A stretch of 64,000 bases of DNA from Thermococcus henrietii (lineage in GTDB: Archaea > Methanobacteriota_B > Thermococci > Thermococcales > Thermococcaceae): NCBI RefSeq assembly GCF_900198835.1, contig NZ_LT900021.1, positions 1,240,001 through 1,304,000 of the forward strand, read 5' to 3'. A program made the translations under genes and the position numbers. This document shows, one piece after another, positions 35,652 to 38,760 of this stretch; position 1 is the first letter of the stretch, and each line of letters begins with the position of its first letter. The notes below the pieces were generated by a model that saw nothing but the letters and a program-made list of their open reading frames with translations, made no database searches and had not been told where the DNA came from.

Positions 35652-36125
35652 GTGGAGGTGAGGACGTTTGAGGGGAGTTTCAAGGGGGAGGGTCTCAGGA
35701 TAGGCGTCGTGGTGGCGCGGTTCAACGACCTCCTCACGGAGGAGCTCCTTAAAGGTGCCCTTGACTGCTTCGAGAGGCACGGCGTTGAGAGGGTCGACGT
35801 CGTCAGGGTTCCTGGTTCCTTCGAGATTCCGCTGATGGCCAAGAAAATGGCCGAGAGTGGAAACTACGACGCGGTCTTGGCTTTGGGGGCGGTCGTAAGG
35901 GGCGAAACGATGCACTTTGACCTGGTCGCCGGCGAGGTCGCCAAGGGCGTCGCGAAGGTCTCGCTCGACACGGGCGTTCCGGTCATCTTCGGCGTCATAA
36001 CGGTTGAAGACGAGCTCCAAGGGCTGGACAGGGCCGGAATAAAGGCCAACAAGGGCTTCGAGTACGCGATGGCAACCCTTGAGATGGCAAATCTGGGGCG
36101 CTCGCTGGGCATATTCGGGAAATAA
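35652..36125 (+). CDS. ribH: Lumazine synthase
   Basis: 157 residues; joins the RibD/ribA-derived pyrimidine with dihydroxybutanone phosphate to form dimethylribityllumazine, substrate of RibE. Family motifs: [40 protein letters not shown] (catalytic His) and [13 protein letters not shown] start at 35652 after GGGGGGTG, 12 bases after the ribBA stop, so cotranscribed. Confidence 0.95.
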
Positions 36126-36134
36126 TCCTGTATA

Positions 36135-36162
36135 TTGGACATTTTTTATAACTTTGGACATT
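36135..36162. promoter_or_regulatory. Direct repeats TTGGACATT
   Basis: Two exact copies (36135-36143 and 36154-36162) are spaced 19 bases apart, close to two helical turns, around the TTTTTTATAAC box A candidate (~36142-36152). TGTATA flanks both. They probably bind a regulator of the secreted CBM2-like gene at 36242. Confidence 0.45.
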
Positions 36163-36241
36163 CTTGTATACATGGAAATTCTTATAAGATTGTGCGAAAA
36201 TATGCAGATTGCCGCATGCAAATCCAAGGAGGTGCTTAAGA

Positions 36242-38188
36242 GTGCGCAGGTTTGCATCCGTTTTGTTGATGGTAGTGATGCTTTTGGCCCTCGTGCCGCT
36301 GTTCCATCCATGGGCGGGGGCCGCCCCAAGTGAGCCCATGAGCGTCCAGCACAGGGACTGGGGCACTGGGGGAGAGTTTGACGTCCAGCTCAACCTCGGG
36401 GGCAAGTATGACTGGAGGGTCTACGTGAGGCTTGTGGGCGCCAACGTTTCCGGCCAGTGGAGTGTTGAGAAATCGAGCTGGAGGGGCTGGACCGTTTTCA
36501 CACCCCTAAGCTGGAACCGCGGACCGTACGCGAGCTTTGGGTTCCTGTACTCGGGACACCTGAAGAACGCAACTTTCGTTCTTGTCGTTAACAACGAGGT
36601 CTGGGCTGTGTGGCCGAAGGGTGCACCAGTTCCGCCCTTAAGCCCAGGTAACGGTACGAACCCGTCCCCCTCCCCGGTCACGGGTTCTTGGGTAAACGTC
36701 ACCAACCCCGATAACTCAACATCCCTCTACGTTGCCTACAAGGTCGCGAGCGACAACGGGTCAGTTTTGACGGTTGATATTCGTCTCGCCAACCTCAACA
36801 GGAACTACACGTGGGACGGCTACTGCTTCGACCTCAGGAACATCAGCTTCGAGACGAACGGAAGGGTTCTCTCCGTCGAATACGCGGACGGGGAGAGCCC
36901 GAAGTACCACATCAACGGCAGTCGTGTGACCCTTGATCTCACTTGGAGAAGTGTCTTCCCCCTCAACACCTCTGTCACAGTAGTCGTCAGGATCGCGAAG
37001 TCCGGCTCTGATCCGGTTCCCCACAACTTCAGGATAAACTACCTCCGCGGTCCCGTCGTCTATCCGAACATCGGAAGCCTCCCCGCGAGCTGGAAGCCGG
37101 GCAACTTCACGCTCTCCGATCTTATCGGCAATCCCTCAGAGTACTACAGCCCAAACTTCACGCCTGAGCTCAACGGGGTTATCGTTTACCACCTGCCCAG
37201 CAGGACGCAGATAATTATAGGCCTCGCCAACATAACCTACCCTCTCAACCTCGCCCACGGTGCCAGGATGTGGGTTCCGAACAAGTACTTCGCCATGGGA
37301 CTTGCACTTGCGTACGCTTGGTTCAGGATAAACCCCAACTATCTTATGGCGCTCGCCGCCAAGGAGAACTGGGGAACCGCGGTTACAAAGGACCCCTCCT
37401 TCAAGGGATTCAACGTCACAATCAACGGCCAGACTTACCACTGGCCTGTTCTCATAGACCATCCGGACGGCATATTCCAGATTGAGAGCGAGAACTTCAT
37501 TCAGCTCACCAAGTACTACCCGGACCTGTTCCCGACCAACGCCTCCCACAACGCCTACCTTCAGGTCTCCCTCAACCCAAAGAACCCTGCATGGATACGC
37601 TCACCCATAACCGCCGCCATAAGCCTGACCATGGAGCGCGAGCTCCTTTACGCGGCAGTTGGCGAGAAGTACAACGAGTTCCTGCGTGAGGCTAAAGACC
37701 CGTGGGCCGAGACTGAGATACTTGACTACGGATACAACAGGGGCATGGGCTCTGTCGCCGCTCTCAAGGTATTCTCAAGCAACTGGGAGAAGGCCGTAAA
37801 CGCACCTGTCCTGTGGAAGGCCCTCAACATGGAGGGCTTCGGCGGCCACGTGCCGACCGTCGTCAACATAACTGCAACGATGGACATGGAGACAAAGGAC
37901 GTCTACGACGCCAACATAACGTGGAGCGACATCGTGTACTTCTTCAACATTGTCCGCACCAGCTTCTTCAGGGAGGAGGCAATAAACCAGGAGCAGTGGG
38001 ACGAAATTATGGAGAACGTCCACCGGGCCTACGAACTCCTCTCACAGCACTGGGGCGGCGACCACATCTCCTACCGCTACGACTTCCTCACGATACTCAG
38101 GGTCGCCATGAAGTTCTGGCCCAAGCCCCTCATACCGAGGCCGACGGGCGACGACTGGTACTACCAGGCCAGCAACTACAGCCCGTGA
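36242..38188 (+). CDS. Secreted CBM2-like protein with lysozyme-like domain
   Basis: 648 residues. GTG start at 36242, eight bases after AAGGAGGTG. Signal peptide (FASVLLMVVMLLALVPLF), a CBM2-like sugar-binding module (~30-125: VQHRDWGTGGEFDVQ, then TPLSWNRGPYASFGFLYSG), a Pro/Ser linker, a second beta domain (~150-270) and a C-terminal helical domain (~300-648). That domain reads MALAAKENWGTA, then DHPDGIFQIESENF and DYGYNRGMGSVAAL, the order of catalytic Glu, GxxQ and YNxGxG motifs in lysozyme-like transglycosylases and chitinases. Archaea of this group lack murein, so chitin or another glycan is the likelier target (inference). Confidence 0.7.
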   Translation: MRRFASVLLMVVMLLALVPLFHPWAGAAPSEPMSVQHRDWGTGGEFDVQLNLGGKYDWRVYVRLVGANVSGQWSVEKSSWRGWTVFTPLSWNRGPYASFGFLYSGHLKNATFVLVVNNEVWAVWPKGAPVPPLSPGNGTNPSPSPVTGSWVNVTNPDNSTSLYVAYKVASDNGSVLTVDIRLANLNRNYTWDGYCFDLRNISFETNGRVLSVEYADGESPKYHINGSRVTLDLTWRSVFPLNTSVTVVVRIAKSGSDPVPHNFRINYLRGPVVYPNIGSLPASWKPGNFTLSDLIGNPSEYYSPNFTPELNGVIVYHLPSRTQIIIGLANITYPLNLAHGARMWVPNKYFAMGLALAYAWFRINPNYLMALAAKENWGTAVTKDPSFKGFNVTINGQTYHWPVLIDHPDGIFQIESENFIQLTKYYPDLFPTNASHNAYLQVSLNPKNPAWIRSPITAAISLTMERELLYAAVGEKYNEFLREAKDPWAETEILDYGYNRGMGSVAALKVFSSNWEKAVNAPVLWKALNMEGFGGHVPTVVNITATMDMETKDVYDANITWSDIVYFFNIVRTSFFREEAINQEQWDEIMENVHRAYELLSQHWGGDHISYRYDFLTILRVAMKFWPKPLIPRPTGDDWYYQASNYSP

Positions 38189-38760
38189 ACTTCCCATCCC
38201 CTCTCCCCTTTTACCACCCCTATCGCGAGCACCTTCTTCTCGAAGGGAAGCTCCAGAGCCTTTCTCGCAAGCTCCTCGGCGCCTTCAAAGGCCGGAAACT
38301 CAAGCTCGGTGAAGCCAAGGTTGTACGTTGCCGTGACGAAGGCCTTCCCTTCCCTCAGCTTCAGCTCCCTCACCCAGAACTCCTCTTTTCCGGCGAATCC
38401 GAGCCATCCTCTGCCGTTTCTCCCCACGATGCCCGCTATCCTCGGCGTGCTGTATTCATCTCTCTCGTAGTCGAGGGCATCAAGAACGTGGATTAGGGCC
38501 TTCTTCGGGCTTTCCCACTCGAGGGCCGGGGCTATGAAGTCCGTCTGGAGGCCGTTCGTGACGACGGCGTATTCGCGGAGGAGCCTCACCACCGGATAGC
38601 TCACGTAGGGGTTGTCCGTCTTCGTTAGGTTCTCGATGTAGACGGCGTTTCCCCTTACGATTGCCCTCCTCCTCGGAAAGGAGCGGGAGCAGAGGAGGTA
38701 GAAGGCGAAGGGCTTCCCCCTCATCAGCCCGACCCCGAGGGTTCTGCCAGTGTAGGTCAC
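38176..38760 (-). CDS. purO: Archaeal IMP cyclohydrolase
   Basis: 194 residues; closes formyl-AICAR to IMP, the last step of purine synthesis. PurO family, unrelated to bacterial PurH: start YTGRTLGVGLMRGKPFAFY, SRSFPRRRAIVRGN, IVGRNGRGWLGF. Its start overlaps the purP gene by four bases (ATGA), and its end overlaps the convergent secreted-protein gene by 13 bases. Confidence 0.93.
   Translation of the reverse strand: MTYTGRTLGVGLMRGKPFAFYLLCSRSFPRRRAIVRGNAVYIENLTKTDNPYVSYPVVRLLREYAVVTNGLQTDFIAPALEWESPKKALIHVLDALDYERDEYSTPRIAGIVGRNGRGWLGFAGKEEFWVRELKLREGKAFVTATYNLGFTELEFPAFEGAEELARKALELPFEKKVLAIGVVKGERGWEVHGL

Follow-up and report, generated by a model that had tools for sequence, protein, structure and literature searches.

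The window analysed here, a 64,000-nucleotide stretch of the Thermococcus henrietii genome, encodes a protein that the initial annotation described as a secreted archaeal protein joining a CBM2-like module to a lysozyme-like domain. Since an archaeon would be expected to have no murein, the locus raises the question of which glycan such a protein would act on, with chitin, the wall of a competitor and the archaeon's own surface glycans having been named as candidate targets.

Gene structure and domain organization

The reading frame of the gene, here termed chiD, was found to be real and is preceded by a ribosome-binding site, GGAGGTG, at 36228–36234, upstream of its GTG start codon (Table 1). 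The predicted product has a hydrophobic N-terminal signal sequence, in agreement with the earlier description of the protein as secreted. The signal peptide is followed by a single CBM2 module, the N-terminal arrangement of a ChiD-type protein. In a phmmer search, this module matched the chitin-binding domains 5dhe, 5dhd and 2cwr with E-values of 1e-21 to 1e-22, and comparison of the folded model with the same three structures using Foldseek gave target-normalised TM-scores of 0.84–0.87 for the CBM2 part, the only part for which the whole-model Foldseek result was trusted. The module falls below the Pfam threshold in the window protein. Sequence and folded model both confirm the CBM2-like assignment made initially. 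The proposed two-part layout was incomplete, as a second beta-domain lies between the CBM2 module and the catalytic part, within the chain that has been crystallised for ChiD. A beta-jelly domain of ChiD has been described (PMC12022489).

At its 3′ end, chiD overlaps a convergent IMP cyclohydrolase gene. In Pyrococcus chitonophagus, too, chiD overlaps a convergent gene at its 3′ end by exactly 13 nt (L030, 7936–7948), although the gene is a different one, and in both species the overlapped neighbour takes its final Gly-Leu-stop from the chiD tail.

Table 1. Features of the chiD locus, with positions given in window coordinates
Feature	Position	Strand	Basis
Possible archaeal TATA-like element, CTTATAAG, upstream of chiD	36181..36188	+	Inferred, read from the sequence
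chiD, predicted secreted chitinase, 648 aa (GTG start codon to stop codon)	36242..38188	+	ORF, PDB 5xsv match, identity to P. chitonophagus ChiD
Signal peptide, approximately residues 1–28	36242..36325	+	Hydrophobic N-terminus up to AAPSEP, by eye
CBM2-type chitin-binding domain, residues 31–124	36332..36613	+	phmmer, Foldseek
Beta-rich (jelly-roll type) domain, approximately residues 165–273	36734..37060	+	Within the 5xsv chain; strands in the AlphaFold model
Alpha-helical lysozyme-like catalytic domain, approximately residues 285–648	37094..38185	+	5xsv alignment, ortholog identity
E375 of KENWG, presumed catalytic acid	37364..37366	+	Ortholog invariance; role by GH23 analogy
GIFQ motif (GxxQ), residues 410–413	37469..37480	+	Sequence, ortholog alignment
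YNRG motif, residues 498–501	37733..37744	+	Sequence, ortholog alignment
Overlap (13 nt) between chiD and the convergent IMP cyclohydrolase gene (38176–38760, − strand) at their 3′ ends	38176..38188		

Identification as an ortholog of P. chitonophagus ChiD

A sequence search of solved structures matched residues 165–648 to PDB entries 5xsv, 5xsw and 5xsx ('Chitinase') with an E-value of 4e-246, and homology to 5xsv covered the beta-domain and catalytic domain at full length. Entry 5xsv is described as an archaeal chitinase and, on a match of titles, is taken to be ChiD of Thermococcus (now Pyrococcus) chitonophagus. An 807 aa protein of the P. chitonophagus genome (G065) contains the crystallised chain, with 485/485 residues identical. 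The window protein was 62.6 % identical to this ChiD over residues 33–648 and 73 % identical over the last 357 residues. Both proteins have a signal peptide, CBM2-type module, beta-domain and catalytic domain in identical order, with all motifs kept. They differ in that the P. chitonophagus protein carries two CBM2 modules rather than one, in genomic place, and in that the window CBM2 is closer to the ChiA CBM2 of its own genome.

Passages of two articles (PMC12713403, PMC10535946) cite Horiuchi 2016 and Nishitani 2018 for ChiD of Thermococcus (Pyrococcus) chitonophagus, and the papers cited for 5xsv in passages of these and two further articles (PMC12022489, PMC9736159) concern the same enzyme. 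Tc-ChiD has been reported to be an active, thermostable chitinase (PMC8615776, PMC9736159). As the ortholog has already been purified and crystallised from P. chitonophagus, the window protein is, on the basis of its sequence, essentially a known kind of enzyme, the ortholog of ChiD from another species. The combination of domains and its substrate, initially considered an open question, had therefore already been characterised.

Pfam scans found no Glyco_hydro_18 domain in the window protein, placing it outside GH18, and no GH18 domain in P. chitonophagus ChiD. Two reviews place Tc-ChiD among the GH18 chitinases (PMC8615776, PMC9855744), a placement that does not fit ChiD because the P. chitonophagus protein is without a GH18 domain in the Pfam scan. 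The GH18 ChiA enzymes of the Thermococcales (T. kodakarensis ChiA type) carry related CBM2 chitin-binding modules and likely share the substrate, but have GH18 catalytic domains where ChiD has none. The window protein contributes a further sequence to this rare type of archaeal chitinase outside GH18. A match to a retron OLD nuclease (E 0.1–0.16) was judged to be due to chance. The 2016 report by Horiuchi is said to mention a Clostridium homolog of the ChiD catalytic domain.

Lysozyme-like motifs and relationship to GH23

The lytic transglycosylase-type motifs recognised in the initial annotation, AAKENWG (E375), DGIFQIES (409–416) and YNRGMGS (498–504), were all present in the order described. 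In all four full-length orthologs, the corresponding KENWG, GxFQ and YNRG motifs were invariant or varied at conservative positions only. E375 itself was invariant in 4/4 and aligned with E534 of P. chitonophagus ChiD, while overall identity of the catalytic domain between orthologs was 71–73 %.

The strict motif order E[NS]..G.[MF]Q..[AG]YN.G was present in both goose lysozyme and the window protein. It was recovered in 0/20,000 shuffles of the catalytic domain and in 0/67 of the remaining open frames of 200 aa or longer across the window, counts that are supportive rather than proof because the pattern was chosen after the sequence had been seen. Profile scans of the window protein matched no GH23, GH19 or other Pfam or NCBIfam family, and hhalign against goose-type lysozymes, with both profiles very shallow, gave no match (probability 0.1 %). 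ChiD thus resembles goose-type lysozyme and GH23 enzymes in its E...GxxQ...YNxG order, but differs from them in the lack of homology detectable with Pfam, NCBIfam or hhalign, a larger domain, wider motif spacing and the attached chitin-binding module. AlphaFold prediction using five ortholog sequences gave pLDDT values of 40 (catalytic part) and 49 (whole protein); given these values and the small number of sequences, the fold of the catalytic domain is not claimed from the model, and the predicted lysozyme-like fold rests instead on the published structure of the ortholog. A passage in PMC10535946, citing the ChiD structure paper, attributes chitinase action to some GH23-type enzymes, and the families listed as containing chitinases are GH18, GH19, GH23 and GH48.

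The similarity in motif order to goose-type lysozyme and lytic transglycosylases would also be expected of a secreted antibacterial or predatory enzyme whose lysozyme-like domain cuts bacterial peptidoglycan. This is very improbable given that the closest solved relative is a chitinase, that the attached module is of a chitin-binding type, and that GH18 chitinases, PIG-L and GH35 proteins are encoded in the genome. The locus raises no new question on archaea attacking murein.

Predicted function and chitin pathway

It is almost certain that chiD encodes an exported hyperthermophilic endo-chitinase, a prediction made from sequence; hydrolysis of chitin at high temperature is known for the ortholog only. 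Chitin is very probably the target of the window ChiD as well. The same genome encodes a GH18 chitinase of 1599 aa that carries two CBM2 modules and one CBM5/12 module, located beside a 590 aa GH18 protein. Close to a PIG-L deacetylase gene lie genes for an oligopeptide-type ABC transporter and a GH1 protein, and a GH35 protein gene is located approximately 9 kb from the PIG-L gene. By analogy with the known T. kodakarensis pathway, the PIG-L and GH35 proteins are candidates for Dac and GlmA respectively. GH18 is also carried by 4/4 of the other chiD genomes.

The proposed mechanism would begin with export directed by the signal peptide and anchoring of ChiD to insoluble chitin by the CBM2 module. 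The beta-domain and helical lysozyme-like domain would together form the substrate cleft, as known from the ortholog crystal structure, which GxFQ and YNRG may shape as in GH23 enzymes. Based on the GH23-type motifs, E375 would act as the single acidic residue protonating the glycosidic oxygen, after which water would cleave the beta-1,4-GlcNAc links. The resulting chito-oligosaccharides would presumably be taken up, deacetylated by a PIG-L/Dac-type enzyme and cleaved by a GH35/GlmA-type glucosaminidase, the usual Thermococcales route, with ChiD acting beside the GH18 chitinases that the genome encodes at other loci.

Of the three targets first put forward, orthology to ChiD supports chitin, and no pointer to the other two, or to murein, was found. 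Neither a competitor wall nor the archaeon's own glycans are needed as a target because the genome has GH18 chitinases and the Dac-like PIG-L and GlmA-like GH35 proteins. Remodelling or shedding of the archaeon's own surface or exopolysaccharide, which secretion and the many N-glycosylation-like NxT/S sites in the sequence might suggest, is more improbable still, given the orthology to a chitinase. In addition, only 5/115 genomes from the phylum have the gene, and its loci are scattered, a pattern unlike that of a housekeeping gene for a surface enzyme.

Distribution and genomic context of chiD

The ChiD region was identified in 5/94 genomes of the family and 5/115 of the phylum, representing two genera, and chiD was located at four unrelated loci among these five genomes. 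In the window, chiD lies between ribH and the convergent IMP cyclohydrolase gene. Its neighbours are argF and dphB in P. chitonophagus, and it lies beside cysS in both G041 and G039. In G056 it has a CRISPR type III-like gene set on one side and tRNA-Pro on the other (L032, 7211–10114), likely an island site. Gene names beyond the window were taken from translations.

Four congeners (L043, L045, L046, L050) have ribH next to the IMP cyclohydrolase gene, the ends of the two lying a few tens of bases apart, which fits gain of chiD by insertion. Both neighbours show altered C-terminal tails at the junctions (36090–36245 and 38140–38260), their final codons apparently having been replaced by the insertion. 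No flanking repeats were found at the junctions, and no ChiD relatives were found in phages, plasmids or viral contigs. One scan of genome contigs for ChiD gave matches in two Thermococcaceae only. Overall, the distribution is sporadic and the gene was apparently gained laterally.

Relationships among CBM2 modules

The number of CBM2 modules differs among the full-length ChiD proteins, with one in the window protein and two in each of the other three (P. chitonophagus, G041 and G056). For 22 CBM2 modules a tree was built on 95 columns per row, with some long branches. The window CBM2 grouped with ChiA modules from its own genome and from two others (support 97/98). It was nearest to the ChiA CBM2 of its own genome, at 63 % identity, compared with 44–49 % identity to the second modules of the other ChiD proteins. 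In G041, the second ChiD module paired with that of a GH18 chitinase from the same genome (99/96), and the G056 ChiD modules were placed near the GH18 modules of their own genome in a poorly resolved part of the tree.

This pattern is suggestive of repeated within-genome exchange of CBM2 modules between ChiD and GH18 chitinases, and is graded as suggestive only because the rows are short and some branches long. The sporadic, apparently laterally gained distribution and this seeming exchange with the main chitinase of the host are the only points here that are mildly new. The chances are about even that ChiD is a mobile Thermococcaceae chitinase cassette, gained repeatedly at unrelated sites beside convergent gene ends, with its CBM2 modules time and again replaced by copies of those in each host's own GH18 chitinase.

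The CBM2 modules of ChiD proteins resemble those of GH18 chitinases in the same genome (window 36332–36613; L029; L018; L022).
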